A stretch of 64,000 nucleotides of DNA from Chrysoperla carnea (taxonomy: Eukaryota; Arthropoda; Insecta; Neuroptera; Chrysopidae). Below the pieces are notes generated by a model. The model did not search any database and was not told the DNA's origin. It saw only the letters and a program-made list of their open reading frames with translations. The first letter of the stretch is position 1; the number at the start of each line of letters is the position of its first letter. Position numbers and translations under genes: made by a program. The DNA is taken from assembly GCF_905475395.1 (NCBI RefSeq), contig NC_058342.1, positions 27,128,640 to 27,192,639 of the forward strand. Reading direction: 5' to 3'. Positions 1-38,500 of this stretch are shown here, piece after piece.

Positions 1-1088
1 ATCATTTTCATTATTTTGGTATCGAAATACCTTCAATAATTACATAAATTTGATTATTAGAGATGTTAAAAGCTATCTAAATTAAAATAATTAATTTACA
101 GATTTAAACTTTTTAGTGTACTGTAAAATGGTCTCGAACAAAAATATGTCTAGCTCTATTCTAGGTCTATAAATAAATATCTTCGTTCCATATTATTTTC
201 AAAACTATATTAAAACCATATGACCAAAAAACCACCAGCTCTCCAGCCATTTAGTCACTAGTACTATACTGTAGTATAGTATACTGCACCAACAAAGCTA
301 GGATAGCAAACAGTGACTGAAGGTAGCAAACAATAAAGCTGATAGTATGAGTAGCTGTGGAGTTATAAGTATAGATAAATCCTGACAAATCTCGTTGATT
401 AAGTTTAGTTTTATCTTCAAAGCTTTGTTTTATTGTTTCATCTGTGTAGTTTTTTTTTTCTGCTAAATTTATTATTTTTTGTTTTTTTGCATGCTCTTAT
501 TTCTCATTCTGATGTCAAAGAAAACTCCTTCTTTGCTTAGGTTACTACAATCATGCGGCTTTTTTTGTTTCTATGAATTCATAAATACATTTTTACAGAA
601 AGGAATTTTTTTTTCTTTTTATAAAATAACCTGTGTCGAACCTAGTAAAGATAGTGAATGACTTCCAATCCCCCTTTCTAGCCATATTCTAACTTTAAAT
701 TAACAATGAGAATTCATGATAATGAAAGTTTAATTCTCATCATCTTTCACTCAATTTACAGGATGATTCTTTTATAGAGGTTTACGTCTTTAAGTTGGCA
801 ACACTTTTTTACTGTAATTGCTTTGTGTTTAGTTTGGTTTAACATGGTTTAACAATTTGTTTGCAATTTTTTGCTTTTTCCTTACAGGCGTTTAATTATT
901 TTTGTTATATTCAAATTTTAAAAATATCATTCATACTGGAAAACCCAACTATTTATATTTCTCAATTTTTTATCTACGGAAACACTCATGTAATGATACT
1001 TCTTTTTTCAATTGCTGTACTGATAATTCTTTAGAAAAAAGAACTTTTTCTCAACTGTATGACCCTGTATTGTTTTCTCAACTGTATG
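1..1088. other. Left host flank of viral insert, no gene seen
   Basis: AT-rich sequence with no convincing coding exon; the short open frames have no recognisable domain. It holds a remnant of a transposase-type element near 774-850 and an imperfect CTATAC/GTATAG hairpin near 260-285. Its main value is as the pre-integration flank of the viral insert that begins at about 1089. Confidence 0.5.
774..850 (+). mobile_element. 5' remnant of DDE transposon related to the 59.4-kb copy
   Basis: About 75 bp (tagaggtttacgtctttaag, then ttggcaacac and the ttgtgtttagtttggttt block) matches the 5' end of the internally deleted transposase element at 59413-59772. No coding part remains here. Confidence 0.4.
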
Positions 1089-1102
1089 ACTTGTATTGTT
1101 TT
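1050..1102. repeat. 27-bp tandem duplication at the left virus-host junction
   Basis: Two tandem units, 1050-1076 and 1077-1102, each have a host-like half (ctcaactgtatgac) followed by a half that matches the viral edge (tgtattgtttt). The second unit runs into the viral NS sequence. The host-virus boundary itself has therefore been duplicated, which fits error-prone end joining with a template switch. Confidence 0.6.
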
Positions 1103-1366
1103 GGCTATTATTCGTTTGACTTGAAGTTCCGGGCTCAACTTCTTTAAAGTTGTTAAGGATTTCTTCCAAAAGTTCTGGAAATCACTTGGACTATCAAATA
1201 CTCTTCCAAAACATGTTGGTAAAAACCAACATAAGAATACACGAAACATACCGTCCAATTCAGGTGTATCCACACGATCAATCGTCAATTCCATTAATGA
1301 TTCGCTTCGTTCACTGTTTTCTTCGTGTGTTGTTTTTTGTTTTTTAGTTGGTGGTTCATCTGCCAT
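1089..1366 (-). pseudogene. Truncated second copy of the NS gene 5' end
   Basis: This leftward frame starts with ATG at 1366, inside the left hairpin arm. It encodes a lysine-rich, acidic N-terminus and then the same residues as the 5' part of the NS2-like frame at 4150-5058. After about 90 codons it runs into host DNA at 1089. It keeps the viral start codon and the promoter in the hairpin but has lost the rest of the gene. The start of the 513-codon NS1 frame is also present here, at about 1169, and is likewise cut. The complete NS body at 3344-5058 has the opposite defect: it lacks the hairpin promoter and the first codons. Confidence 0.8.
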
Positions 1367-1432
1367 TTTTGCACTTTTAATTGTTACTGATTCACTGTAT
1401 AGTCAACTATACTTGCTGCTGCTACTCTTTTC

Positions 1433-1440
1433 TATTTATA
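1433..1440 (-). promoter_or_regulatory. TATA box for leftward NS transcription
   Basis: TATAAATA in the left ITR arm, mirror of the box at 1771-1778, about 70 bp upstream of the NS start codon at 1366. It drives only the truncated NS copy; the long NS1 copy at 3344-4885 has no such box next to it. Confidence 0.6.
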
Positions 1441-1770
1441 TGATTTTTTCCAGCTATTTTTAATGAAAATTTTTATAATTTCCCTACCTATACCGTCACC
1501 GCCGCACCCGAGACGGGTTTGACTTGTTGTTGTGTTTTTCTTTTAACCTTGTACACGTGTTTTTCTTTTAACCTTGAAGAAACCGGTTGATCGGCCGGCT
1601 GCGGCCATGGCCATGATCAGAACCATAGTTTCTTCAAGGTTAAAAGAAAAACACGTGTACAAGGTTAAAAGAAAAACACAACAACAAGTCAAACCCGTCT
1701 CGGGTGCGGCGGTGACGGTATAGGTAGGGAAATTATAAAAATTTTCATTAAAAATAGCTGGAAAAAATCA

Positions 1771-1778
1771 TATAAATA
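1771..1778 (+). promoter_or_regulatory. TATA box for rightward capsid transcription
   Basis: TATAAATA in the right ITR arm, 67 bp upstream of the capsid start codon at 1845. A TCAGTA initiator-like match lies at 1821. It is identical to the leftward box because it lies in the inverted repeat. Confidence 0.6.
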
Positions 1779-1844
1779 GAAAAGAGTAGCAGCAGCAAGT
1801 ATAGTTGACTATACAGTGAATCAGTAACAATTAAAAGTGCAAAA

Positions 1845-2837
1845 ATGGCAGATGAAAATTTTATTTTAGTATAAAATATAAATTTAGAAAATTTTAATGC
1901 AAAAGTAACTGCTGTACGTGTAAAAGTTACCCCTGTTGGATCACAATGTTGCTTTACTACGAATGCAACCAATGCTGCCTGGACAAATTCAACACAAACT
2001 TTGTTTGGAATACATTCTATTGGTTTAAATAGAACTGGGTTTGTTAAGGCAAATAAAGTTAAATCACGCAAAGCAGCAAGTCCTATGGAGATTGAATCCG
2101 TAGAAGTTGTGACACCTTCAGATTGGAATAGATTATTTGCAACCGAAAATGATTCTGTTCATTTACCATCAACTTTTGGTGTTATACGTTCGTTGCCATG
2201 GTATACCTCAGTTTTTCAACCTTCAACAGAATATTTCTCTAATGTTGGAACATTCGATTTGTCGAAGTATGTTACTATGTGGGAATTTTCTGGTCATGTT
2301 AAAAAACCTATTATTAATTATGAATATAAGACCGTTAATGGATATATTAAACATAAAAAAATGGTCCATAATTTGGTTCAAGCTTCAAAAAAAATTCATT
2401 TAAATATTCAACCAACTGCTGTTTGTGAAATAACTGGTACAGGTGATAATGTAGACATAGCTAAATCTAGTTCTGTTTATTTAAGATCACGTGAATATCA
2501 AAGTTACAACGAGACTTTCATTGATGATATGTTCCAAGGAATGATGAATGAAACTTCTTCGATGAATGTTTTACAACCTTCTGTTCATTTTGGTGTGTTG
2601 GCCTGTCAAGCAAATGCACCTGATGATGGTTTAAGTGTACCCCCCGAATTTGTAAATGTTTCTGCGATTTGGCAAATTGATTCCGAAATAGATATAGAAT
2701 GGGACATTAATTGTGTAATGCAACGTGATCCTAATTTGGGAATGTATCAACAAAGTGTACATAATACTGGTAGTTATAAAGTGTCTAATTATTATAATTA
2801 TCCTTCTGTTTTCGGAGCTTTAAACTACACGACGTAG
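1845..2837 (+). pseudogene. Densovirus capsid (VP), main frame, one early stop
   Basis: ATG at 1845 lies in the ITR arm. After nine codons the frame meets TAA at 1872-1874, then stays open to the double stop at 2835-2840, about 320 codons. The stop lies in a 33-nt in-frame segment bounded by a 10-bp direct repeat (GAAAATTTTA at 1854 and 1887), so it looks like a small duplication or insertion in an otherwise intact frame. The first later Met codon in frame is at 2094. The character (a VRVKVTPVG strand, Asn/Thr-rich loops, a QPSVHFGVLA segment) fits a densovirus VP4-type jelly-roll capsid. I see no phospholipase A2-like N-terminal region, which many larger densovirus VP1 proteins have. The frame ends in a -1 frameshift signal at 2819-2877 that leads into the overlapping frame at 2798-3283. 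Assignment to capsid is by position and character, not by search. Confidence 0.72.
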
Positions 2838-3283
2838 TAGATGATGGTAATACTACGGAACAAAATGAACCATTACCTGAAGAGCATAGTACCTCAGTTC
2901 CTGTTATGGATACAAGCACAGGTGATGAATCTATGGTTACTGTTCAACCATCGACACCAGATCAGACAAGGACAACTGTAACTACTGATACAGATAGTGA
3001 TGCTCTTTCTCCTATTACAGCACCCGAAAGTAGATCCCGTATTACGAATGTTGTAGTTTATTTTAAGGGTGATTCTAGCGATTTAAAATCGCAAAAAAAT
3101 TTACGTTTTCAATATACAAACGTTAAATTTTATGGATGGACAAAGTTACATATAAATCAGCGTTCATACTTAACTCGTATATCTGAAGATGGTCGTTATG
3201 CTGTTAAATTTGGACTACATCGCCAGCTACCTAATGCCTATTATTTAAGTGAATATAATTTAACATTTTATACAAAAACATAA
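2798..3283 (+). CDS. Capsid C-terminal extension in the -1 frame
   Basis: Open from 2798 to TAA at 3281-3283 in the frame -1 to the capsid; the two overlap by 40 nt. It encodes an acidic Ser/Thr/Asp-rich linker of roughly 70 residues, then a compact domain of about 80 residues rich in aromatic and basic residues (VVVYFKGDSS, NVKFYGWTKLH, LPNAYYLSEYNL). The first ATG is at 2906, with no promoter or ribosome-entry feature that I can see, so entry by frameshifting from the capsid fits better than independent initiation. The likely product would be a minor capsid protein carrying an exposed tail, in the way some other viruses use readthrough or frameshift tails. Alternative: a single-base indel has split what was one frame. 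Confidence 0.65.
   Translation, partial: LSFCFRSFKLHDVVDDGNTTEQNEPLPEEHSTSVPVMDTSTGDESMVTVQPSTPDQTRTTVTTDTDSDALSPITAPESRSRITNVVVYFKGDSSDLKSQKNLRFQYTNVKFYGWTKLHINQRSYLTRISEDGRYAVKFGLHRQLPNAYYLSEYNLTFYTKT
2819..2877 (+). promoter_or_regulatory. -1 ribosomal frameshift signal with H-type pseudoknot
   Basis: The slippery heptamer TTTAAAC at 2819-2825 is phased as T TTA AAC in the capsid frame. The spacer is 7 nt (2826-2832). Stem 1 is a perfect 7 bp: CGTAGTA (2833-2839) with TACTACG (2851-2857). Stem 2 is 5 bp: GGTAA (2846-2850), abutting stem 1, with TTACC (2873-2877). Loop 1 is 6 nt and loop 3 is 15 nt. A -1 slip reads straight into the frame open to 3283; without a slip, translation stops at 2835. 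Heptamer type, spacer length and topology all match known -1 frameshift elements. Activity is inferred. Confidence 0.8.
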
Positions 3284-3297
3284 TGTAATTTTAAAAA

Positions 3298-3334
3298 TTT
3301 ATTATAATAAAAAATACATATATATACAATAAAT
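3298..3334. terminator. Convergent poly(A) signals for VP and NS
   Basis: On the + strand, AATAAA lies at 3306-3311 and 3329-3334, downstream of the capsid stop. On the - strand, AATAAA lies at 3303-3298, just past the NS1 stop at 3344. The overlapping tail-to-tail signals are typical of ambisense densoviruses. Confidence 0.65.
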
Positions 3335-3343
3335 TGTTTTATT

Positions 3344-4885
3344 TTAAAAATCAAAATAGTTGTTTGTTATTCCAGCTTCTTCCAATAAATTATAAAATGC
3401 AATCGGCCATATTTGCTTTGTGTAAGTATGACTGAAATCTGGTATTTTCCATGTATATCGTACCATTCGATTAGAGAATTCTTCGTTGTTAGGAAAAGGA
3501 TCGTTATTACACGTGACAATAATTGGTGTTTTTTGAATTTGTGTTTGGTGTTGATATTTTACATTGGCTCCACACGGGTCTCCTGAGAATAATAATTTTA
3601 TATCTTCCAAATATTCTCTACTGAAATTTGGTTCGTCCCAAGTTAGTATTCGTCTGTCAGTACAGTCATCCAATGGGAATGATGTATTTTTATTCATATT
3701 GTGTATTTGACCTTTTATTAATAAAAACGATGTAATGATGTGTACAAAATATGATTTCATAGCATTACTGGGACCTTTAATTAAAATTGTATTTTTTTTG
3801 CCATTTATTTTATTTAAAGTTTTATATAAATTTGTTAAAAAATCAGTATATGCGTCGTAATTATTGTCACATTGGAACAATAACAATCTTTTAAGTTTTT
3901 CGGTCGAGTCGGTTTCGTCGTAATAATACATATATTTTCTTCCGTCGTAACAATTGAAATTCGGATTGCTTGTTTTATAGAATTCATTAAACCATTCTAT
4001 TGTTTTATGCTGGAACTCTCTGTTAATTCTATTACAAGCAATCTGGAAGATTTTATGTTCTCGATTAATAGTTGACCATTTCGAATCTAAATATTCCACC
4101 GTTGCACATGTATTATTTATCGGACAAGTCGCTATGCTCAGCATAAATTTTACCAGTTCTTGAATTTTCGTTGTTCGTGGTGCACTTCTGGATCCTCCGT
4201 TATCTGTTTCGTCACTGTGCTCGTTAGTTCCAGAAACTTCTGAGAAATTTCTGTTGTTCCTGTTTCGTTCACGAAAAATTTCAGCTCTTGCCTCGCATGC
4301 ATCCAGTACTGCGATTTGTCGATTTTCGGATTTGTAACCACATGTAGTGGAATTGCACGCAGGTGGATAAAATAATCTGTCCCTTCTCGTTTCGGTGCCG
4401 TATACGTATCTAAATGATCGTGGTCTCTTATGCAAATACTCGTAGAGAGCATGGAGTCGTTCGTCTGTAACGTTGTAGGTTGCGATATTGGCGTTGTCGT
4501 TAGGTTTCGCAACATCGAATCCAGCGAGAATCCCGCACCTACATTGTTTTTTGTTGAAAGAGCAGTCGTGGACCGTGTGGATGTGTTCCCATCCACTTGT
4601 GTCGTGGACTGAGACCCACAAAATTTGTCCCATGTATCGGCTGACTCTTTTTTCCAACTCCTTAAGAATGTCACTAATTTCTCGTTTATTTCGGCATCGA
4701 AGTATTCTGTGCAAAATAAATGGTCTTCTAGACATTTCTTCTCTAAATTTGCCCATCCATCTACAGTTTCCTTCGCTGGTAGGTCCGTCCATAAATTGTT
4801 CACCACTTGTATTGTTTTGGCTATTATTCGTTTGACTTGAAGTTCCGGGCTCAACTTCTTTAAAGTTGTTAAGGATTTCTTCCAA
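3344..4885 (-). CDS. Densovirus NS1 replication initiator (HUH nickase, SF3 helicase)
   Basis: An intact 513-codon frame. Residues about 100-115 carry the HUH-type metal-binding motif (HIHTVHDC, followed by a CRC cluster), and a tyrosine-containing segment further on could supply the nicking Tyr. The C-terminal part is an SF3 helicase: a Walker A-like loop GPSNAMKS near residue 369, then RILTWDEP (Walker B), a GANVKYQ loop and PIIVTCNNDPF (motif C). In parvoviruses this protein nicks the terminal origin and unwinds DNA in the nucleus. The Walker A loop has Met where the second glycine of GxxxxGK[ST] is expected; this may be natural or a lesion. The start Met at 4885 is inside the duplicated region, so this copy is complete for this frame but separated from the ITR promoter. 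It overlaps the NS2-like frame over most of its 5' half. Confidence 0.9.
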   Translation of the reverse strand: MEEILNNFKEVEPGTSSQTNNSQNNTSGEQFMDGPTSEGNCRWMGKFREEMSRRPFILHRILRCRNKREISDILKELEKRVSRYMGQILWVSVHDTSGWEHIHTVHDCSFNKKQCRCGILAGFDVAKPNDNANIATYNVTDERLHALYEYLHKRPRSFRYVYGTETRRDRLFYPPACNSTTCGYKSENRQIAVLDACEARAEIFRERNRNNRNFSEVSGTNEHSDETDNGGSRSAPRTTKIQELVKFMLSIATCPINNTCATVEYLDSKWSTINREHKIFQIACNRINREFQHKTIEWFNEFYKTSNPNFNCYDGRKYMYYYDETDSTEKLKRLLLFQCDNNYDAYTDFLTNLYKTLNKINGKKNTILIKGPSNAMKSYFVHIITSFLLIKGQIHNMNKNTSFPLDDCTDRRILTWDEPNFSREYLEDIKLLFSGDPCGANVKYQHQTQIQKTPIIVTCNNDPFPNNEEFSNRMVRYTWKIPDFSHTYTKQIWPIAFYNLLEEAGITNNYFDF

Positions 4886-5058
4886 AAGTTCTGGAAATCA
4901 CTTGGACTATCAAATACTCTTCCAAAACATGTTGGTAAAAACCAACATAAGAATACACGAAACATACCGTCCAATTCAGGTGTATCCACACGATCAATCG
5001 TCAATTCCATTAATGATTCGCTTCGTTCACTGTTTTCTTCGTGTGTTGTTTTTTGTTT
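4150..5058 (-). CDS. NS2-like overlapping frame, 5'-truncated
   Basis: A second NS frame, open from the insert edge at 5058 to a stop at 4150-4152. The first Met left in this copy is at 5010 (286 codons). Comparison with the other copy (1366 leftward) shows that the viral start lies further upstream in the ITR and that only the first few codons are missing here. It overlaps the 5' half of NS1 in another frame, as NS2/NS3 do in ambisense densoviruses. I recognise no catalytic motif. The C-terminal part is rich in Thr and charged residues and reads as the shadow-partner of the HUH domain; retention of two long overlapping frames supports both being real. Confidence 0.65.
   Translation of the reverse strand, partial: KQKTTHEENSERSESLMELTIDRVDTPELDGMFRVFLCWFLPTCFGRVFDSPSDFQNFWKKSLTTLKKLSPELQVKRIIAKTIQVVNNLWTDLPAKETVDGWANLEKKCLEDHLFCTEYFDAEINEKLVTFLRSWKKESADTWDKFCGSQSTTQVDGNTSTRSTTALSTKNNVGAGFSLDSMLRNLTTTPISQPTTLQTNDSMLSTSICIRDHDHLDTYTAPKREGTDYFIHLRAIPLHVVTNPKIDKSQYWMHARQELKFFVNETGTTEISQKFLELTSTVTKQITEDPEVHHEQRKFKNW
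4805..5058. repeat. Direct duplicate of 1089-1342
   Basis: 254 bp with no difference from 1089-1342, same orientation, offset exactly 3716. It marks the redundant part of the permuted viral unit. The identity ends at the host boundary on the right (5059) and at 1343 in the left copy, where the left copy continues into the ITR. Confidence 0.92.
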
Positions 5059-5252
5059 GTTATATATCTAAATTTTTATTTTAGATGAAATTTTTATTTT
5101 ACTTTTGCATTTTTTTTTAGAAAAAAAAATTTACAAAATTGTTCCTTATCAGAGATCGTATCCGCATTCAATAAATTTGAGAAATTTTACTGAATTAAAA
5201 TACTAATTTATTTTTGCGTCGAACTTTAAAAGTTATTGTGTGAAAACAAAGG

Positions 5253-5640
5253 TAATTTTATTGAAATCGTTGTAGAAAGGGAGTATATAAAAAAAAGTGT
5301 GCGTTCTACAATGTTAATTTTATTTAAATCGTTGTAGAATGGAAGTATATAAAAAAAAAGTGTGCGTTCTACACTAACAACTTGCACTTGCACTTACCTT
5401 GACTAACAATTGTGACCATGTAGATAACAAGAAGACACATGTGATTACGATGTGTATCCCGTTGTGTTGGTAATATTCTGATGGTATTATCCGTTGCACG
5501 ACGTCGCACAAGAATTGACCGCACTGACCATACTCCACCACTGTTGTAATTGGTCAACAACATTTTTGTAAAATATAACTAAAATAGTTTCAATAAATAT
5601 CTCTCTTAATTATTTACAATGTTCTTATGTTCTTGTCTTT
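5253..5640 (+). repeat. Tandem TATA-box repeats, possible solo LTR
   Basis: Two units of about 62 bp (around 5253-5313 and 5314-5373), each with gttgtagaa, a gtatataaaa box and gtgtgcgttctaca; the TTGTAGAA and TTCTACAA parts of a unit are inverted. A single AATAAA follows at 5592-5597. TATA box to poly(A) signal within about 250 bp resembles the U3-R part of an LTR, but I cannot define TG...CA ends or a target duplication. It lies about 200 bp right of the viral insert. Confidence 0.35.
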
Positions 5641-5745
5641 CACATTCACACACCACTTTCTGTCTTCTTTCTTTTTATTCAATTAAAGCACTCACTGTTT
5701 TTTTTTTTAGAAAATCTGTAAAGAAACAATTGCGATTAATATAAC

Positions 5746-6462
5746 GGGTGTCCTTGGTTTAAGCAATCACCGCCAATATTTCATCAGAGGAATTTTCAAA
5801 AATAAGCAGGGTCACTTTGACGACCTCTTCGATTTGAGATCCGTTGATGCCAAAGCACTGTATCTATTCTTAAACAGCTCCAAATGGTTCATGGAGTAGT
5901 GTCCCGAGATGTACCAGCTCCCTTTTTCAATATCACAATGGACGCTATAGTCAAATAGTGTCTCACATCAGGACAGCTACTATAACTTAACCTAACATAA
6001 TTAGACCCTGTTCACGATGCTCTGGTAATAGGAACCTAGTTTCTTAAACTTTGATGGTGAGTTTGTATTCTTGGCTTACTACTCCTGTCTTCACACAAAG
6101 CTGAAGCGGTTTACATGATAATAGGAATAATTAAGCCAGGATAATTCCAGTAGCATAAGAGTCAAAACATTCCGGAAAAAATTGGCATCCTTTCACAGAA
6201 AGAAAAGATACCAAAATTTATGTCAAATTATATTAGACGAATTGAAAAGCCTTGCCAAAATTTCTAAAAAAGTGCATTTTGACAAGGCTGGATTGCTAGA
6301 AGCTAAAAAGCTAACACAGTCTGAAGGTCCAAATTTAAATTTAATATCTCCATCAGATGTGACCTTTCGATTCCAAAAAGTTTCACAATCATTATTTTTT
6401 TTGGATTAGTGACTTTTCTGGTTAAATATTGGCGGTGGTAAATTAAAATGAACACCCAATAT
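5746..6462. mobile_element. MITE with GGGTGT ends, hosting a LINE fragment
   Basis: The left end (gggtgtcc ... accgccaatatttcat) and the right end read in reverse (gggtgttc ... accgccaatatttaac) form inverted ends of about 38 bp. AATATAA flanks both sides as a likely target duplication. The interior includes a LINE 3' end (5800-5995) and a 75-codon open frame (6182-6409) with no recognised domain. Confidence 0.55.
5800..5995 (+). mobile_element. 3' end of a non-LTR retrotransposon
   Basis: Plus-strand reading gives the C-terminal pattern of R1/Jockey/LOA-type reverse transcriptase proteins: a DLFDLRSVDAKAL stretch, then LYLFLNSSKWFME and a stop, followed by a 3' UTR ending in taacctaacata. 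Related ends occur at 29744-29846, 35021-35412 and 47147-47412. The copy is 5'-truncated and dead. Confidence 0.65.
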
Positions 6463-8076
6463 AAAAAGGATATTTAAATCCTTACACAAATTCAATGATA
6501 CAATTTATTGAATAAATTTGTCTTTGTGTCCTGAAATAGGAATTTATTATTGCCTAATCTTTAATGATGATTGTTCAAAACTATGCTTACTTTTAAGGAA
6601 AATTCATCAAACCTCATGTTTCGACGAAGTTTTTTTATTGTCTGATCATTTACTGAATCAGTTCACGAAATAAGCCAATGAAAATCAAGTAATACACGGT
6701 AAGTAGCCCAAACTGGACACTTTTGATAAAAGAAGTTTAATAATTTACATTGCTTTCAATGTCGCATGATGATGAGCCCAATCAGCCAATAAGGTGGATC
6801 AGACAGTACACTACTAACCTTAATTTCTAAAAATAATAAATATTTGTCTTTTGATTCTGTCCGTCTTGGCGGATTAAAATTTTCATAATTTTTATCTTTT
6901 CAGTTGAAATATTTACAAAATTATTCGTTTGACTATTTTTTGTAATTTTAATGTCATATATGAGATTTACAGTCAAACATGGTTAAGAGAGAATTGAAGG
7001 GACAGGAAAGGTTCCTCAATTCTATTAATTACTTCTCACCTAGAGAGGTATATTAATAATATTCAAAATATTTAGTTATAAACATATATAATATATTGTG
7101 TGCAAGTGCTGCTTATAAATTTGATAATATAGATATCTTTCTTCAATCAATACTCTAACTACAGTCGTCTCTGTTTCTTCAAATGATGGATCTTCTATGA
7201 ACTCATAATTAAATTAAAATTTTGTTTTTATATAATCGGCAAAGTTATATTTTTATGGTATTATAATAAACTACATGATTGTCTAAATATTTTAGATAGT
7301 TTTTTATCACACTCTCCAGATTTTTTGATATAGAAATATCCAATTGAAAAGAATAACCTATATGATTAATCATTTTTTTCAGCCAACTTTTAACGATAAA
7401 AAAATTAATAAAAAGCCCGATGACCTAGGAATTTTTTGTAATTTTTGGATACTTTGTTAATCAAAAAATGTATTTATAAGGTTTTATTGAAATCCCTAGT
7501 ATTATTCAATTCTTGCATATCTTCTTAGATTGCTTAATTTAACTATAAGGGAAAGCCTTTTATCTAAATATCTTGATACCGGGACAGAAATCAAGTTCTT
7601 TTTTCTACCATGACATCGAAATATTACCTAACGATTTGCCTCTTCAGAGCTTTATAATTCCAATAAATTTTACCATTGAATTCAACAAACAAAATTATTT
7701 ATAATCGCAATTATAATAAATATAAATGAAATAATTTAATTTTAATGAACAGTTTTTGAATAACCAATAGGGCCCAAAATAACATATTTATCCTATTGGG
7801 TCTTTCACACCAGCTCATATTAAATGAAAATTTATTTGCATATTGCATTTATGCAAACACATTGGAAAAGTTTTCCTATAGAATGCTAATAAAATTATTT
7901 GTGTCTATTACATATGGGAATTACCGTGGCAATGTTTATATTCCTCCCATATTTTGCCAACACATAACAGGATACAATATATATTTATTAGTATTTTAAA
8001 ATTAGCAAATAATATTATTAATAGTCATCAACTTTTTGAATAATATATATGTATATATTTATTTATTTATTTTGAA
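6463..8076. other. AT-rich spacer, no gene seen
   Basis: No exon, RNA gene or clear element boundary. A TACAGTCAAACATGG match at about 6970 resembles the end of the TA-target MITE at 58452-58844, but I could not find its partner end. Confidence 0.4.
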
Positions 8077-8537
8077 CTAGAGTGATACTCACCCGCTTCG
8101 CTGAGTTTAAAAGTAAAGATTGATAAAGATCGCTCTTGCTTATCCCCTTTCTATAACACTCGAAATAATGGTAAGGATTGTTTTACACCTGTAAAATATA
8201 TGTATGGTTTTTTATTTTTTTTAAATGTATAATAGTCGTAATTATTCCTTGAGTATACCAGAAAAGATGGCCGTGAAATATTTTATATTGACTATTTTTA
8301 CAGAAATCTGTAATTTATGGTAATGTCAAATTAAATTAATTTTAAAATTAATAATTTTTTTTTAATATATCTTTATAAATTATATCTCATGTGTTATCTC
8401 TGAAGTATGAGGTATATTGCTGTACAGTTTAATTAAAAACCATTCGCTAGTTTTCAATCCGTGAAAGCGTAACAAACAAACAAACATACAAACAAACAAA
8501 CAAACATGCTTACTTTCGCATTTATAATATATAGAGA
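8077..8537 (-). mobile_element. Non-autonomous Helitron
   Basis: Read on the minus strand it begins TCTCTATATATTATAAATGC and ends ...CACTCTAG, inserted between A and T (A|TC...CTAG|T), the Helitron signature. A (CAAA)n tract lies near the 5' end and a gcgaagcggg motif near the 3' end. It is the same family as 11065-11493. Confidence 0.75.
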
Positions 8538-9491
8538 TTTGAAACAAGCTCGTTTACTATTTTCTATTATATGAGTGTAATTCTAACTAAATACGAGTAG
8601 TTATCTCTATTCAGGATGGTTTTATTTAAAAAACAATATTTATAGTTTTTTTTTTTTTTTTATTGTCCTTAATCGGATGATTTATATTCAATTCATGGTT
8701 GCATAAACTTATACACTACAGTATGAGGCAGTTAATAATGTTGTTTTGGCAAAATTTGAATATACTTTGCGTTAGTTTCGATGGTCAGCACTTGCGTCAA
8801 CCGTTTGATAATCTTTAAGCGCGTGATGAGAGATTTGAGAAAATAAAAGTTATTTATATTTTAAAACGAGCATGAGCAAAATGCTTATAACGCGAAGGCT
8901 GACTGGGTTGCAAATTATTTAATTTTCGATTCTTCAAAAATGACCTGATTGTATGCTGAAGTACTATCCAATCTTTCATTCCTTTATATTTTACACTTTT
9001 CGGGAAAATCGATGGAAAAATGACATTTTGACATTTGATGCTTATAAAACGTTAGTCATTTCAACACTTTTAGAAAAAAATTTCTATAAATTTTGTAGCA
9101 TTGTGATCCCATTTCAATTTCTAAATATATCTGGATGTAAGAAATTTGCCCGGGGTTTTGCAATAAAATTATTTTCCATTGCAATTTAAAACAATTTTCA
9201 TAATGATATTTTATTCAGTGTTGAAAATTTTCTAATAAAATAAGAAATAATATCTTAGAAGTATCGTATAGTATCGTATAGAACGGTGCGGCGAAGCGCC
9301 ACATTGGTGCAAAAAGTTTGAACAATAAGTGTTAAGACACTTAAAGTTAGTTTATTTAATACTTACATTTTAGAAGTTCTTATTTTATAGAACCTGATAG
9401 TTTTAAAACAGTCCATACATTCAAAGAAACATTAATTTACAATTTAGTTGTTGTCGGGAAAATTTTTGCTGTTGTTAGCCCAATCATATAA
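8538..9491. other. AT-rich spacer, no gene seen
   Basis: No supported gene. A poly-T run lies at about 8650, and a short duplication (gtatcgtatagtatcgtata) with a GC-richer patch at about 9260-9310. Confidence 0.4.
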
Positions 9492-10365
9492 TTAGAACCT
9501 TTCGTTCAGCTCTAGTTTTTGATATCTACAAACAGGTGCCCAAGACTTCTCATTTTTATCCAAGAATATCCCAACATACAAAAAATAAGTATTTTTAACG
9601 AACTCTGTTATAGTTTGGTTAACAATTTCAAATAGGTGAAATATAAAAATAATAGTCATAAAAATACGTGCAATAGTTTGTTGGATTCGGAATGATGTCA
9701 AGAAAAATGTGCCAGAAGCATTTTTCAGAACATAAAACATTACAAAACAATTAAAATGAAAAAAAAAAGTTTTTTTATTTGATCTCAAAATTTTTCGAAC
9801 TTGCGTTCATTCTCAAGAGGTACACAAAATTTGAAATTTAGACTCAAAATAGGTGTTCGTAGCACATCTTCTTTATCGTTACACGTTGTTTTTGAATTTA
9901 ACCTAATTTCTAACTCTTCTAAAACGTTCATAAGCTTTTCTTTCTCGCATGTGTGTAAAATTTTGAATTTATCATCAAATTTATGGGCATTTAGAATGTA
10001 ATGGTCTGAAAAAGCTGTTGCATCAATGTTTTTAAGTCGAATGGATGCACTATGTTCCTTTTTAAATGCGCGGCCCGATTGCGGCCCGATTGCCCCACAT
10101 ACGTTACGAGACATTGCCCCACATACGTATTCTACACAATTAATTTGGTAAATACCTGATTTTTCTTTTTCTAAAGTTTTTTGTTTATTATTTACTTATA
10201 ATTTTGATAACTCATACTAACGTCAAAAAATTTTATAAAACCAAGGTATTTATTTTGTTATATTTATTATAAACAAATTTTGTATAAATTAAATTGAATC
10301 TCTTGAGAATGAACGCAAGTTCGAAAAATTTTCGAGATCAAATAAAAAAACTTGTAGTCATACAA
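9492..10365 (-). mobile_element. Penelope-like element remnant with inverted flanks
   Basis: It contains the GIY-YIG remnant below, flanked by an inverted pair: 9775-9826 and 10296-10352 share cttgagaatgaacgcaagtt, then cgaaaaattt and gatcaaataaaa in opposite orientations. Penelope-like elements often have such partial inverted terminal repeats. The reverse transcriptase part is absent. Confidence 0.5.
9785..10160 (-). pseudogene. GIY-YIG endonuclease end of a Penelope-like element
   Basis: The minus-strand frame has the typical C-terminal endonuclease residues of Penelope-like elements: VEYVCGA, a GRAFK-x-EH segment, NIDATAFSDHYILNAHKFD, FKILHTCEKEKL and LEELEIRLNSKT. The N-terminal GIY-YIG strand region is disturbed: VCGA is duplicated with a nearby GPQSG repeat, so the catalytic Tyr/Arg context is broken. 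Without the upstream RT it cannot be active. Confidence 0.65.
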
Positions 10366-29579: not shown

Positions 29580-32500
29580 TTATGAACAATAAATAAATAA
29601 TATATAAATAAATAACAACAATTGGATACTTGTGTTTACAACTATCGAACTTGCATCCCCGCAGGCTTCCACTTGTTCCTCCTGAAACAACAAATTAATT
29701 TTTAAAGTAAAAATTTGAAGTATTTTTAATCGAATTTCGGTAAAATGGCCGGAGATGGGCCATCCCATAAACGGTATCACAACGGACCCTATGGTCTAAT
29801 TGTGTCCCACCCCAGGACAACCACTCTAACCTAACCTAACCTACAGCTACGTTCACTTGGCGTTTGAATTGATGATGTTTTTACTTAATATGAACTCTGC
29901 GCCGGACTAATACAAATTCTACACTGCGCATGATTTTATCAAGTAAACGTGGCTCAAATTTGTTACTTGAAACTTATCAGAATTAGACTGTGTTCGATGC
30001 AAATAAAAGATAGACTTACCAATGGATGTTCTGTATAACAGCCAGCCAAACGACGCCTAGGTAAATCATTTAATGCAAGTTTATGACATGGCGGTTGCGT
30101 ATAATTGTCGTAAATAATGTCTCTGGGTAATGCAAAAATTTTGGTGTAACAAGTTGGCTTCATACCATCGACCACGACTAGTAATAAGTTTGTATGGACA
30201 ATTCTCTTTATATAAAATGGCCTGAAACAAAAAAAATGAAATAGTTTTAGATGCACTGGTCAATTTGGAGCCGTGATATACGAGCTGTGTTCGATATGTG
30301 TCTATAATTTGTCGAATTAGCGCTAAGTTAACGCCAAACCGACAATTTGACAACGTAAATACAGAATATTGATTCCATGTCGATTCATCCTCATCGGAAA
30401 TTCATCCCCCCGTCATTTAAATCACGAAAAGTTATCCTTCAATCGTTTTGATCTTGACTGACTTATCGTCATCGCTCGGAAACGATCACCGGAACCCGTA
30501 GTACATCAATAGGAAAATCGAGGAATGTCTGGGTATTTGAATCACATGGTTATCGAAAGGGGCAAATAACTCGGAAAGGCCTTACTAACTTGACCTCAAG
30601 ACAGACATGACAAACTCGTAGAACGCATGGATATTACAATCATTGGGCTAACTCAAGAACCAAAAAAAAACGCAGACTTGTTTTAGTTCGACTCCAATCA
30701 CACGGAGTGTGATTTATTTGAGTCTGGGTATTTCATTCACAGGATTAAATCAAAAGCTAAAAAACCCGAAGACTCGTGTTAGTTCGACCCCATCAGAGGC
30801 ATGGGGTCGCAAAACGCTTAAGTAGATCTGCACTCGCTGAACGCAGACAACAGTTTAAATCGCGGGTTCAATTGTACAGGGATGCGTAGCTCTGCTGCTA
30901 GGAAACTGTTCTCAAAGGTTTAAAATTCCGCTCCATTGAAACTTGACGTAAACCGCTGGTTTTGGATGACTAACGTTAACGTAAAGTAATCAAATATGGC
31001 TTCTCTTGGTTTGACGCTACCTAACGTCACTATTTTACGTCATTAAATTAGTCAATGAAGTTGAATCCTTGAATTGCTAAATTGTTTACGCAGTCAAAAC
31101 ACGTAGATGTGAAACACTAGCGTTGGGGAGCTTTGGCCAATCAGAAGCCAACGCCATCGTTTTACAGGGAGCTGAATCCCTAAATTTTTAGATTGTTTGC
31201 ATAGTGTAAACATACAAACGTAAAACGCAGACGTTGAGTGGCTTTGACCAATCAGAAGTTGTTACGCCAACGTTGTACGTCACTTGACGTTTGAATGGAG
31301 CGTACGTCTAACAGTAGTACCAACCTAGAACAAGTTGTTGGAACTTTTCCATTATATCGTATATCCCCGTCAATAAATTTTTTTTGCTGTAATATATACA
31401 AATCAATTTGTTTATCACACGCTCGATGTTTACGCTCACAAATCAACTCTCTTGGTTTATTAAAGAAATCTTCCTCCTCTTGATTCTGTCCTTTCCGTAA
31501 TTTCTTCTTTGGCACAACCATTTGAGACCAATTTTCTGGTTTTGCGCATGCACTAACATATTCTTGTGTTGGTAACGTGGATGGTAAAATTTCCTCTATG
31601 GATGCGCTCACTGAATTCCATAATTGATATAAATTTGTTTCGAGCAGTGTATAAACAATTCTCGTTACAAACAATTTAATCATGTTGAATACACTCGAAA
31701 GAATATGAAAGGTGTTTGTAGAAGCGTCATCGAAGTATGAATGCTCGAAGAAACATAAACCTTGATAATCGTAGATTGTGATTTTTTTATAAATATTTAA
31801 ATTAATCATTGTTTCCATTACAGCTCCCTCGATTTCACCGAAGAATCGTCCTACATCTGACATTTGTTCACTTAAAACGACATAGCCATTGCTGTCGATG
31901 ACGTAACAATCTAATTTGTCACCTTGACATTTCTCACTACATTTGTTGACCTTGTTTACGGTATCGGTTTGGCACTGGAACAGAAAAATATTTGTTTAAG
32001 AAGAACCATCATTTCGGTAAACTTATAACAAAACGTTCATAAATGTGACCCAGTCAAAGGGGGGTGGGATTACTTCAAAAGCTACGCTGACCTAGCCTTT
32101 GAACGCCATACTCTTACAATGGCAATGCCAATGTTTCAGAAAATGTCTTTTTGACTTGATAAATAAAAAAAATTACCCATTCGGAGGAGGGAAAACTATC
32201 CATCATAGTAAAGGCTTCGGTAGTATACATGGAGTGAAGGAGGGGTTCCAAAGAGGCTGGAATTGAGCCAGGGTAGTTTATGAACGCTCATAAAGGACGA
32301 AGAAGATCAGGGTGTTGCCTTTTTTTAAATTGACTAAAGAAACGTTAAATTAAACCACCAAATTTGGAAAATTTTTTAGTAGAATTACATGCTTGGTTTG
32401 TCAAAATGTGATAAGATTTGCGTTTGATACAGCAAATTCATTTTTATGATTTTGATGACGTCACCAGGTTCAAAAACTCGTCTTTTGGCATAAGTTGGTC

Positions 32501-35500
32501 AAATTTTATCCGATTTGAATGGAATTTTTATCGATTCCTACTAATTTTGGGTCAAATTTTCCATTTTTATGGTTAAAAATTGGCTAATACTTACCTTTGT
32601 ACGGAATGTCGGTTCCAGGATGAAGCCTTTTTTTAAATTAACTAAAGCTACGTTACATTTAACCAATAATTTGAAAAATATGACCCAAATTTAGTAGAAT
32701 TCTATGCTTAGTTTATCAAAATATGATAAGATTTGCGTGTGATACAGCAAATTGATTTTTATGATTCTGATGACGTCAGTAGGTTCAAAAAATCGACTTT
32801 TGGCATAAGTTGGTCAAATTTTATTTGATTTCAATGAAATTTTTATCGATCCCTGGTAATTTTGGGTCAAATTTTTCAGTTTTACGGGTAATAGTTTGCT
32901 AATAGATACCCTTGTACGGAATGTCGGTACTAGGATGGTGATTTTCTTAAATTGAGAAAAAATAAGTTAAATTTAACCAAAAATTTGGAAAATATGGTCC
33001 AAATTCAGTAGAATTACATATTTAGTTTATCAAAATGTGATAAGATTTGCGTGTGATACAGCAAAATCAATTTTTTTCATTCTGATGACGTTAGCACGTT
33101 CAAAAAATCAATTTTTTGCATAGGTTGGCCAAATTTTATCCGATCTGAATGAAATTTTTATCAATTCCTACTAATTTTGGGTCAAATTTTCTAATTTTCG
33201 TTTAGAATTTATGCGGAATGTCTGAATTTCGCTTTAGCATTCATGAAACTGATTTTTAAATGGATAAGAATCGTGCAGTACCCTCGAAAATGATTAATTT
33301 TAATAACTGAAATTAGATACTTACAATAACTCTCGACGTAATCTCCATAAATCGTTCATACATTTTACTAAGTTCAAATTGAAAACCAACAACCGAACCA
33401 GGTGCTTCGTTACCGCCATCTCTCGGGAAAATCGCATGTGAAGCCGTCACCAATAATTTCGTCTTGTCATTTTTATTATAACTATTTTTCGGTGATGTTG
33501 TTGGTTCTTGAAACGGTACCGATAAAATATACGAATTATCATCGATTTCATGTTGGAAAACCGCACTTTTATACCAAGTTTCATCAATTGATTTTGGATG
33601 AACATTACCGAATTCCTTTCGTGTATGTTTATCCTGATTTTTCATGTATTGCCAACGAGTTAATCCGCTCATTGTTGCAATAAATCGCAAATAAACGTTA
33701 TACAATTTATATAGTTGATTATCGCTGGTGGTATTTAAAGTATCAAAATTATCGTATAAAAATGGTTCAGTAACTTTGGCATCGAATACTAATCGCTGTA
33801 CCAATTCTTTGTTGCAATAATAGTCGTCATCGTTTAGTGTTTTACGACCACAATTAAATTCTCGCGATTCCGCTAAAGTACCATTTGGACCCCATGAAAT
33901 ATCGTCTAGTAAGGGATCGGCTTCATACTGTTCGGACCATTTCCAATTTGGTAAATCGTTGGACATTTTTTTTAGAAAGTGTATTAATTCACTTTCACTG
34001 GAGTTAAATTCGTGACCTTCGACGTAATGATATTTACAGTAAACCTGTTAGAAAATTTTGATTAGTTTATTTTAGTCCAATATTCAAATACAGTACAATC
34101 TCCCCAGATAAAAAAATCCCATTCATGAATCGGAAATTTCCAATTCAACTAATCGGAATGAATACGATTCAATTCTAAGAAAAGGTTTCGATTCATTCCG
34201 ATTCATTCCAATTGAATCCAATTAAAATTTTGAATAGAAATTTAATTGAAACGAATCGGGGTTAATTGGAAAAACATTTCCTATTGAATTCAGATTCAAT
34301 TCAATAAAACTAATCGGAAATTTCCTATTGGTTGCAATTAATGAATGGGATTGAATTGGAATTTTCATATTGAGTTCTATTGGATTGAATTGCAATCGAA
34401 CTTTTTTATCAGGGCTAGTATATAATCGGGTACAATCGAAAAAAAATCATCAACTTACCCATTCTGGATGCACTCTCCAATTAATATTGACATTGGTATT
34501 GTTATTCAAGTTTGTATTAAAAAATTTTGTAATATCTTGACCCATATGTAAATTTTTCTTCAGTTCATCGCCAACTTTGATCCACATATCACCATAATTA
34601 TTCGGTATTGCCAAACCAATTGAAAACGGTGTATTATGTAATGGTGCGAAGTAATAGTCCATCGATTGTTCATGGATTCGTCTCATTTTATCCCAATGAT
34701 ATTTTATTGGAACATCCATGATGTTACCGAATTCATGATTTACTAATGACTCCCGTAATTTTAGTGTGATGTTATTCAATTCTCGTACACCTAAATTATT
34801 GTGATCGTCAACTTGTTCCACTTCCATTAAATCGATGCTGTTGTAATTTTCTTTTAATACTCCTTGATACTAAAAAATAAAAAATCGTGAGCTCCAGAAC
34901 TCTATCATCAAGGTCATATTTTTCCTCCTAATTATACGCTTTTTATTGAAATTATATTTTTGTTTCTTTATGTTTTTGAACAACTGAGGGCCGAAACTAC
35001 CAAAAGACACTTGCTTACAATTAGGTTAGGTTAGGTTAGAGTGGATGTCCTGGGGTGGGAAACATTTAGACTATAGGGTCCGTTGTGATACCGTTAATGG
35101 GTTGACCCATCCCCGACCACTACTCCATGAACCATTTGGAGCTGTTTAAGAACAGCAAGAGGGCTTTGACGCCGACTGACTTTAGGTCGGAGAGGTCGTC
35201 AAAGAGAGAGGCTGGCTCAAGTAAGTCCATCTCCTCATGACAAGAGCTGGGCAGTGACAGAGAAGATGATACATTGTCTCCTCCTCGTCACCACTGTGAC
35301 AGCATCCTGCAGTCGTGATACACAGCCAGGCCTAAGCGTTCAGCATGCTTGCCTCCCAGCCAGTGTCCTGTGATAGCCGCAACAACTTTGCAAACAGAGG
35401 CCTTTGGAAGTGATATGAAAAAAAAAAAATTCTTACAATCAATTCTCAGACAAATTTCCAATCCCCTAACTCAATTTGAAAAAGTATCTTAAAAACCGCG

Positions 35501-38500
35501 AAATTCTATGATATTTTGACATAAAAAAGGGAAATGAATTCTGGGAAGTTGATATCTCTAAAAAGCACTTTCTTGGCACTCACTCAATCAACGTACGCGT
35601 TTCCAATTCGTATGATTGGTTAGGAGCGATTTTACAGATGATCAAAGCCTATTAAATGTCGAAAAAATCGGTTTTCTCCCTGGGAATTTCCTCCAAATTG
35701 CTGAAATGAATCCCCGTTTTAATGAACAACTCTACATACCGAATATTAGCTGATTTAAACTAAAGAGGGAGCCGCAACAGGACCCCAAATGTAGCGGGAG
35801 GAAAAAAGATTATACCTAAGAACAGCTGAACCAATTGTAAACTTTGATAATTTAAGAAATTTGGACCTATGCGCGGCAGTGTCGACATCGAAGTTTTTGT
35901 TTTTCTGTTTCACTTCTAGTCTTTATATAATCCGATAGCTTCTTGTAAAATGGAACCTGTCATTCGAAGACAACCTTCCTGGAAACAATTCGTCGTCTGA
36001 AGACAGATCAGGGGACGAGTTACTTTACAGGAAGAGGACAGAAGGGTAAGAGAAAGGAATAAATACTTACAAACGGTCTTAAATCGGGATGTTTTAATAA
36101 ATATCCATTGTTACTGACAACAAATGAATATGCGTTCACTCCAAGTTTGTATGGCAAAGTTAATTTTTCGATATCTTCTAAAGGTACATCCGTGCCGGCG
36201 ATTCCTAGTAAATCCGCTCTTGTGGTTTCATTATCACTATTCATCTTCTTATCGTACACTGGTATCGTAACGGATGTTAATAAACGATAATCACCTTCGT
36301 CTTCATCGTCTTCACTCTAAAATAGTACAAGAAATACAGTTTTGAAGCACAAAAATTTAAACAACTCGTTGAAAATTTAATTATAAGTATTTGAAAAGAT
36401 GTAAAATAACATGAAATAAAAATTCTAATAAAAAATACTTTTTAAGCGGCAAGCTTTTATTTTACTAAAAAGTAGAAAATAACTTTATCTATGAGCGACT
36501 ATTTGTAAAAGTTTAAGGCTCTCAATTTAAAATTCAGTCGCTGTCACGTGGACCTTAAGGACAATTAGAAAAATTAGCGAGATATGTAAGAAAATCTAAG
36601 AAAAAAGGGGTCTGCTATTGTTGAAGGAAGTGGAAAAATGATTTTCGAGGAACCAATGGGCTGTATCGCCACAGTAATACAGCATGCAGTTTTTAAGATA
36701 TTGCCCGATATCCGCTCGAAATTCGTAAAAAATATATCCAAATAATTTCATACCGTTAAATCCACAAACGCATGCGTCCAAGTAGTTGGATGTTCAATTC
36801 CTTGTAAAACCAAAGGTCTCGCAATAACTGGAATATATTTTAAAACTTGTTCATCAACTTCCTCCAGATCCTCAATATGCACATAATAACCGCGATTTAG
36901 GCATGCCAACCATTGAATTTCCCGTACTTTGGTAACCTCCTTTCCAATCAGATACGTAAAGATTCGGACAGGTATTAACGACATATAATTCGTGTTATTC
37001 GAAGTAGTTGTATTCATTGTATCCGCTGTCATATTATCCGCTGACGCGTTATAATGCACCCGATTATAAATTGAATAAATTTCTGTTAAATTTGAAGGAA
37101 CACCATCTGTGATCAACATTATTAACTGATTACATGATTGTAAATTGTTATTTTGTTCGTTGTTACAGTTACGCATTTCTCGATACTCTTTTAGAATTTC
37201 AAAAGCTTTCTGGAAAGCAATTTGAAAATTTGTTGTTGAATTTAAATCCGTTTTTGTTATAGATTTTACGGCATCTTTGAGATGATTAATGTTCTCAAAC
37301 GTGGCTTGAATTAATCGATCACTGTAGCAATCAATTAAATCATATGTGTCATTGTTAAAAGAAAAAATGTTGACGTAATCGTTGTTGGATAGTGTATCCA
37401 AGATACTGGATACAGTTAGTCCGGCAATCCAATTATTATGGCCTCTCATTGAACCGCTGATATCCAGTAAAATAATCACGTCTTTGCTACAAGTCGCTGC
37501 TTCAATGTACCTGAGAAAGAAAATCATCGTAAACTCTTAAATATCCTGTATATACTAAAATATATACTCATTGCAGGTACAGAATTTCATTACAATGGGA
37601 ATGATGACAAAATTTGTATACCCTGTATATAAAAAATATATATCAAGGTATACTAAGTTTGGACCCAAGTTTGTAACGCTTAAAAATATTGATGCTATGA
37701 ACAAATTTTTGGTATAGGTGTTCATAAAGTCATTTAATTATCCCATTTCCGGTTGTCTGTTCGTCTGTCTGTCAACACGATAACCCAAAAACGAAAAGAG
37801 ATATGAAGCGAAAATTTTTATAGGGTATTCAAGACAAAAAAAAAGTGAGGTTCAGTTTGTAAATGAGCAATATAGGTCAATTGGGTCTTGGGTCCGTAGT
37901 TCCCATCTTGTAAACTGTTAGAGATAGAACAAGAGTTTAATTATAAAAAATGCTCTTTATAAAAAAATTAGCAACTTTTATTTGAAACATTTTTTTGTAA
38001 ACATCACTGTTTACCTCTGAGGGCGCAAATTAGAACAAACCTTTGGTGTCCATTTTCTCCAAAATTATAAAAGATACGGAATTGAAAATTTGCAAGTAGA
38101 ATACCAACTAGAGGTCTTGTTAAACATTCTCAAAAAATGAAAAGAAATTATAGAAAATACCTGATTATCGAAATTTTTGAAAACCAAATAAATGGCGCCA
38201 TAATTGTTTTAAACTCTTCTATTTTATTAAAAATAATGCAAGCACTGGCATTCAACACTTTCTATAAAGGGTATTTCAACAATTAACTCAGTCAATTGTT
38301 TTTTATCACTTGAAATCAAGAATTCTCTCTGGACGAACAGAAAAATGAAGTTTTTGAAAATCCTTTTCAAACAGAAGTATCTCTGTGAAAAATCATCGAA
38401 TTGGCTTGATAACTCATTTGAAAGCTTGTACTTTCTAATTTTGTAATCTATTGCTCAAAAATTTTTATCAATCCTTTCCGCTTTGTTCGCAGAGTTGAAA

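Follow-up and report, generated by a model that had tools for sequence, protein, structure and literature searches.

Programmed −1 ribosomal frameshift signals of coronaviruses, astroviruses and retroviruses link gag or the replicase to the polymerase. In luteovirids, which are plant RNA viruses, readthrough of the coat-protein stop codon adds a long extension to the C-terminus of a minor capsid form. Minor capsid proteins of parvoviruses are described, in passages of PMC6521121, as N-terminally extended forms with a common C-terminus that arise by splicing, leaky scanning or alternative starts. According to parts of PMC6521121 and PMC10267136, the ambidensoviruses AdDV and PfDV have a split VP whose extra frame is N-terminal (PLA2) and spliced. 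Acheta domesticus segmented densovirus (AdSDV) has a long VP C-terminal tail that lies inside the capsid and pins the DNA (passages of PMC10267136). Solved densovirus capsids mostly expose the VP C-terminus on the outside, close to the 2-fold axis, BmDV1 being excepted (passages of PMC6521121). Predicted −1 slip sites near the 3′ ends of capsid genes are given in sections of a preprint for adintoviruses, adenoviruses, polyomaviruses and papillomaviruses; they are KnotInFrame predictions and are called hypothetical there (PMC11071296). For parvovirus B19, a passage of PMC10891878 states that a frameshift site was sought for one overlapping region and none was identified. In the open-access literature, outside which most subscription papers lie, none of the matches listed reports frameshifting in the capsid gene of a parvovirus.

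We analysed a stretch of 64,000 nucleotides (the window, C6:27128640-27192639) of the 559-Mb genome of the green lacewing Chrysoperla carnea. It contains an integrated densovirus element, whose capsid gene probably ends in a programmed −1 ribosomal frameshift signal that came from the densoviruses behind this and other integrated copies. The element has the following main parts.

1089-5062, no strand: integrated, circularly permuted copy of an ambisense densovirus (end repeats; Denso_VP4 and Parvo_NS1)
1355-1856, no strand: palindromic inverted terminal repeat at the unit junction, with 229-nt arms and a 44-nt centre
1845-1874, plus strand: ATG in capsid phase, ended by the in-frame TAA 1872-1874 (reading frames)
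1875-2837, plus strand: capsid (VP) zero frame, 320 codons, stop TAG 2835-2837 (Denso_VP4 E 5e-22, profile positions 10-297 of 299)
2798-3283, plus strand: −1 frame, open 2798-3280, 161 codons (reading frames, selection, codon usage)
3306-3333, plus strand: poly(A) signals AATAAA at 3306 and 3328 (sequence)
3344-5010, minus strand: NS gene in two overlapping frames (Parvo_NS1 E 9.5e-17)

The element ends in direct repeats of 258 nt (1089-1346 and 4805-5062) whose spacing, 3716 nt, we took as the unit length. Hence, it is a circularly permuted integrant slightly longer than one unit. We class it as a densovirus on its capsid and NS domains. The capsid gene on the plus strand and the NS gene on the minus strand have the arrangement of the ambisense Densovirinae, and inverted terminal repeats with a TATA motif, another trait of that group, are also present. 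The palindrome lies between the 5′ ends of the two genes. Its TATAAA (1771-1776) and CAGT (1814-1817) are presumably promoter elements, the promoter being recognised solely as a TATA motif in the sequence. Besides this motif, the palindrome includes the start codon and the first 12 nt of coding sequence, so that the capsid and NS sides share their first four codons. The window copy is young, as its two direct repeats have diverged at 1 of 258 positions and its palindrome arms at 0 of 229 (1 in 487 positions together).

The capsid ATG 1845 sits in the terminal repeat. The frame in the window lacks the N-terminal part of the protein, its residue 14 aligning weakly with residue 104 of AdDV VP2, and a profile search of it returned Denso_VP4 and no PLA2 family in a copy from which the N-terminal region is missing. 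Given this loss and the in-frame stop after the ATG, the window copy probably makes no working capsid. The frameshift signal is a property of the viruses, preserved in this copy, where it is still intact because the copy is young. At the other end of the frame, the motif QPSxHxGV lies 86 residues before the stop, and 87 before the end in Acheta domesticus densovirus VP2 (4mgu). This weakly suggests that the end of the zero frame roughly matches that of a known densovirus capsid, in an alignment that is itself weak (E 0.084, and −3.6 bits for the stretch with the motif). A further in-phase TAG follows the capsid stop.

The capsid frame ends with the codons GCT TTA AAC TAC ACG ACG TAG, and the heptamer is 9 nt before the TAG at 2835. 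Around it we distinguish these elements.

2819-2825, plus strand: slippery heptamer T TTA AAC in capsid phase, unchanged in all four other copies
2826-2832, plus strand: spacer of 7 nt, variable in sequence among copies
2833-2857, plus strand: stem 1, seven pairs between 2833-2839 and 2851-2857, including the zero-frame stop
2846-2877, plus strand: stem 2 of an H-type pseudoknot, five pairs between GGTAA 2846-2850 and TTACC 2873-2877
2840-3028, plus strand: linker rich in Ser, Thr, Asp and Glu, −1 frame (pN/pS 0.43-0.64)
3029-3280, plus strand: C-terminal domain of 84 residues, −1 frame (pN/pS 0.15-0.26 against three copies)

The original prediction had named an in-phase T TTA AAC with a 7-nt spacer, a 7-bp stem and a 5-bp second stem, and all are present in the sequence. 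The −1 frame it gave as open for about 150 codons is open from 2798 to 3280 (147 codons counted from 2840), and the Ser/Thr-rich linker and extra domain it placed there correspond to 2840-3028 and 3029-3280. Stem 1 pairs CGTAGTA with TACTACG by seven Watson-Crick pairs. With stem 2 it could feasibly form an H-type pseudoknot, whose loops would be 6, 0 and 15 nt by the stem coordinates; an alternative 5-bp stem 2 pairs 2844-2848 with 2869-2873.

Chance alone would place 0.087 slippery heptamers in phase within the frame overlap, which offers 12 such positions. Hairpins of seven Watson-Crick pairs at a spacing of 5-9 nt arose in 35 of 4000 dinucleotide shuffles, and in 11 of 4000 when accompanied by a second stem of at least five Watson-Crick pairs. 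These limits were chosen after the site was seen; looser ones (6 and 4 pairs) give 122 of 4000, allowing G-U pairs gives 149 of 4000, and pseudoknots also turn up in the AT-rich window itself, at 424 of 18264 positions sampled. Stem 1 has a modest energy of −7.7 kcal/mol (2826-2877), and its pairing probability depends on where the fold ends: 0.84 at 2880, 0.99 at 2925, 0.43 at 2975 and 0.01 at 3025. Folding of 2819-2919 is energetically unremarkable (z +0.24, with 118 of 200 shuffles folding equally well or better), so the structure is unconvincing alone. Viewed without the other copies the signal is only suggestive. It is conservation in those copies that carries the case for a putative frameshift signal.

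The site resembles those of coronaviruses, astroviruses and retroviruses in its in-phase X XXY YYZ, a spacer in the range of 5-9 nt, a stem-loop or H-type pseudoknot and a nearby stop. It differs from them in that the zero frame encodes the capsid of a DNA virus and the predicted product is a C-terminal extension, and the lacewing densovirus stems are shorter and richer in A and U. Luteovirid readthrough also recodes at the coat-protein stop to give a minor, C-terminally extended capsid form, but without a frame change, and the proteins are unrelated. With the cases in PMC11071296 the locus shares a slip site near the end of the capsid ORF and an alternate C-terminal isoform, whereas the frameshift passages of that preprint name no parvovirus and contain no selection test. 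AdDV and PfDV, as described in the passages cited above, are likewise ambisense densoviruses with capsid proteins from two frames; in contrast to theirs, the lacewing extra frame is C-terminal and has no good intron. AdSDV also has a densovirus capsid protein with a long C-terminal addition, a tail with a special function, but frameshifting is not mentioned in the searched text of PMC10267136; with no frame change mentioned, all its VP would carry the tail.

A DNA search of the lacewing genome found at least four further copies of the junction between the frames, 76-85% identical to that of the window and with other breakpoints. We compared five copies, the window copy (L001) and the following.

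C6:5.78 Mb: junction copy L002
C5:73.28 Mb: junction copy L003
C5:60.25 Mb: junction copy L004/L005, a single locus split by an insert
C5:24.6 Mb: junction copy L006, partial and decayed

Searching the genome with the capsid protein gave at least 11 matches, every one within those five loci. In stretches of 9 kb, the four copies outside the window align with each other only in their viral part, save for one match of 134 nt at 74% that lies elsewhere. The flanks of the window copy (1-1088 and 5063-9500) have no match adjoining the viral part of the others, and one 77% repeat elsewhere. From these differing endpoints and unmatched flanks, the five copies look like separate integrations.

TTTAAAC, the zero-frame TAG and the −1 offset are kept in all five. 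L004 has acquired a later 327-nt insert inside the heptamer, with a 9-nt duplication and TTTAAAC on both sides, and the decayed L006 has lost one base in the loop after the stop. The frame junction is otherwise free of indels. The L004 insert corresponds to positions 4107-4433 of the C5:60.247 Mb copy (L019), and a second copy of it (86%) lies at L019 1531-1837. Homologues with one uninterrupted VP frame, which the original prediction had named as contrary evidence, are absent among the five lacewing copies. A lack of conservation of heptamer and stems, the other contrary outcome it had named, is likewise not seen among them: the heptamer stands in 5/5 copies, with a mismatch in stem 2 of L003 and decay in L006 as qualifications. 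Exogenous relatives were sought in the protein database and in IMG/VR, a viral collection that may contain no densoviruses and was searched with VP, with NS and with a single degenerate DNA pattern for NS1; the only match was the lacewing NS-derived protein P0001.

A two-frame gene in an endogenous virus could also be the work of a chance indel that split one long capsid frame in a decaying copy. Endogenous viruses do decay, and the older copies here bear indels and stops. We regard this as very improbable, given that the identical offset occurs in five copies with different breakpoints, that the window copy is young (one difference in the 487 repeat positions) and that both frames were under selection in their two-frame arrangement. 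An indel specific to one copy is ruled out by the five copies together with dN/dS.

The evidence for selection comes from pairwise comparisons of the window copy with L002, L003 and L004, which contain few independent lineages since L002 and L004 are close kin (dS 0.10-0.13). In this order, dN/dS is 0.12, 0.17 and 0.10 in the zero frame and 0.26, 0.31 and 0.21 in the −1 frame (2834-3280), against 0.84-3.1 in control readings of the same stretches in the wrong phase. Differences in the −1 frame concentrate at third codon positions (42/136, 38/124 and 40/130), compared with first (24/135, 26/124 and 20/130) and second positions (16/135, 17/125 and 12/129); the chi-square p-values for this bias are 3e-4, 5e-3 and 3e-5. 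Between L002 and L004 dN/dS reaches 0.61 and 0.95, the pattern that decay after integration would produce. Judged from these alignments, both frames are marked by purifying selection, so that the two-frame order existed in replicating viruses, in which both frames mattered.

There is also constraint on the RNA signal. Among L001, L002 and L004, none of the 31 heptamer and stem columns is variable, against 25/108 neighbouring columns, i.e. the rest of 2780-2918 (Fisher p 0.0012). With L003 added the counts are 2/31 and 30/105 (p 0.014), and these p-values are too kind because the copies are related. Third codon positions between 2834 and 2885 are variable at 1 of 17, compared with 37/105 downstream (p 0.02); with L003 the values are 1/17 and 41/88 (p 0.002). 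The spacer differs from that of the window at three of its seven positions in L002, none in L003, two in L004 and one in L006. The stems are conserved in L002 and L004. In L003, stem 1 has a G-U pair, stem 2 has the mismatch, and 2834-2857 carries three amino-acid changes. For covariation, which the original prediction had offered as a check, 47 of 48 cells remain paired across four sequences, and 0/12 pairs have a compensatory double change. The shuffle control for covariation is uninformative, since 500/500 shuffles reach the observed values.

The main rival to frameshifting is a short intron that joins the capsid frame to the −1 frame, the heptamer being incidental. Splicing has precedents: the NS gene of the same element has a 77-nt intron in NCBI's protein model, and AdDV and PfDV splice their split VP frames together (passages of PMC6521121). 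Across four copies 25 GT-AG pairs that would restore the frame are kept, but none of the 113 such pairs in the window resembles the NS intron. By rough score matrices, the NS donor ranks within the top 0.8% among the 3335 GTs of the window, whereas the best capsid donor, at 2593, falls in the top 2.4% and would cost the capsid its last ~80 codons. The next-best donor, at 2770, is not a GT in L002 and L004. Splicing also leaves unexplained why an invariant heptamer and stems lie beside a variable spacer, and we consider it unlikely.

If frameshifting is the correct reading, the −1 frame is used from the heptamer on. When the 443 nt after the stop were shuffled, any forward frame was open throughout in 0/20000 cases. 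In the overlap, whose codons belong to the training set, the codon-usage score is 0.57 for the zero frame against −0.66. After the overlap the −1 frame scores 0.45, and the capsid itself 0.49. Between 2840 and 2932 the −1 frame scores 0.67 and the other frames −0.10 and −0.62. In line with this, pN/pS over 2858-2932 is 0.43-0.52, a range that is based on few sites and is similar to that of the later linker (0.49-0.64).

These values bear on a further alternative, in which the −1 frame is a separate cistron, translated unfused from its own AUG at 2933 by reinitiation or leaky scanning. This ATG is conserved in all four copies that cover it, the window included. The codons of 2834-2931, with 8-11 nonsynonymous and 3-4 synonymous changes per copy, are by themselves no proof of selection and do not on their own establish coding ahead of it. 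On the other hand, AUG 2933 is 95 nt beyond the stop and behind the entire capsid gene, the AUGs beside the stop (2841 and 2844) are in the zero frame, ATG 2906 is absent from the three other copies covering it, and 2840-2932 is coding-like by both codon usage and pN/pS. The −1 frame thus looks coding from just past the slip site, before AUG 2933, which on balance argues for fusion to the capsid rather than a free-standing small gene. We hold a separate cistron to be quite improbable. AATAAA occurs downstream of both frames and nowhere between 2838 and 3280, so one mRNA could serve both.

Under frameshifting, the majority of ribosomes would terminate at TAG 2835 and release the ordinary capsid protein. 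In a minority, a pause at the stem or pseudoknot 7 nt further on would be followed by a slip from T TTA AAC to TTT AAA C, after which translation would proceed in the −1 frame as far as 3280. The resulting minor capsid protein would be longer by ~150 residues, which comprise a flexible, acidic linker rich in Ser and Thr and then the 84-residue domain, and this long form would be built into the shell. The extra domain might be displayed outside or lie in the particle interior. Display outside is a guess, because the AdSDV C-terminal tail enters the capsid interior. It seems fairly likely that this lacewing densovirus lineage had two capsid proteins from one mRNA through a pseudoknot-driven −1 frameshift, the rare long form bearing the 84-residue domain on a stalk. 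If true, the parvovirus family would gain its first known frameshift and its first capsid with a minor form that recoding extends at the C-terminus. Such an extension would also be a new way of varying the T=1 particle in a small DNA virus. The selection evidence offers a test for the slip sites called hypothetical, in sections of PMC11071296, near the capsid ends of other small DNA viruses.

Constraint within the −1 frame is strongest in the 84-residue domain. In Pfam, searched to E 10, it gave only noise (FBP_C 0.04, DUF6550 0.45), the L019 piece had no Pfam match, and a sequence search of the PDB had none for the domain. AlphaFold without an alignment gave two models with pLDDT 54.5 and 55.6; Foldseek on the first of them returned best E-values of 0.047 (BFVD) and 0.52 (PDB). 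We considered a papillomavirus E2-like DNA-binding fold and found nothing in its support.

On the minus strand, the NS frame has a single match at E ≤1 in the protein database, an uncharacterised Chrysoperla carnea protein with 100% identity over 243 residues. The intron of NCBI's protein model P0001 is of the GT-AG type, spans 4967-4891 and connects NS exon 1 with the NS1 frame. The first exon of P0001 is missing upstream of the NS gene in the window and is present only in a left partial copy, from 1366 on. Hence, another part of the genome, or a different assembly, may contain a further NS copy whose second exon is identical. Rfam returned four matches in window positions 1000-6000, none at the gathering score. 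Right of the element, at 5246-5373, there are two near-repeats of 51 nt with a TATATAA core that are possibly promoter-like. Beside the C6:5.78 Mb copy, L018 2233-2886 (minus strand) holds a reading frame that is reverse-transcriptase-like by eye. Farther along the window, reading frames of the host at 31252-39830 (minus strand) look, by eye, like a calcium-channel alpha-2/delta subunit.
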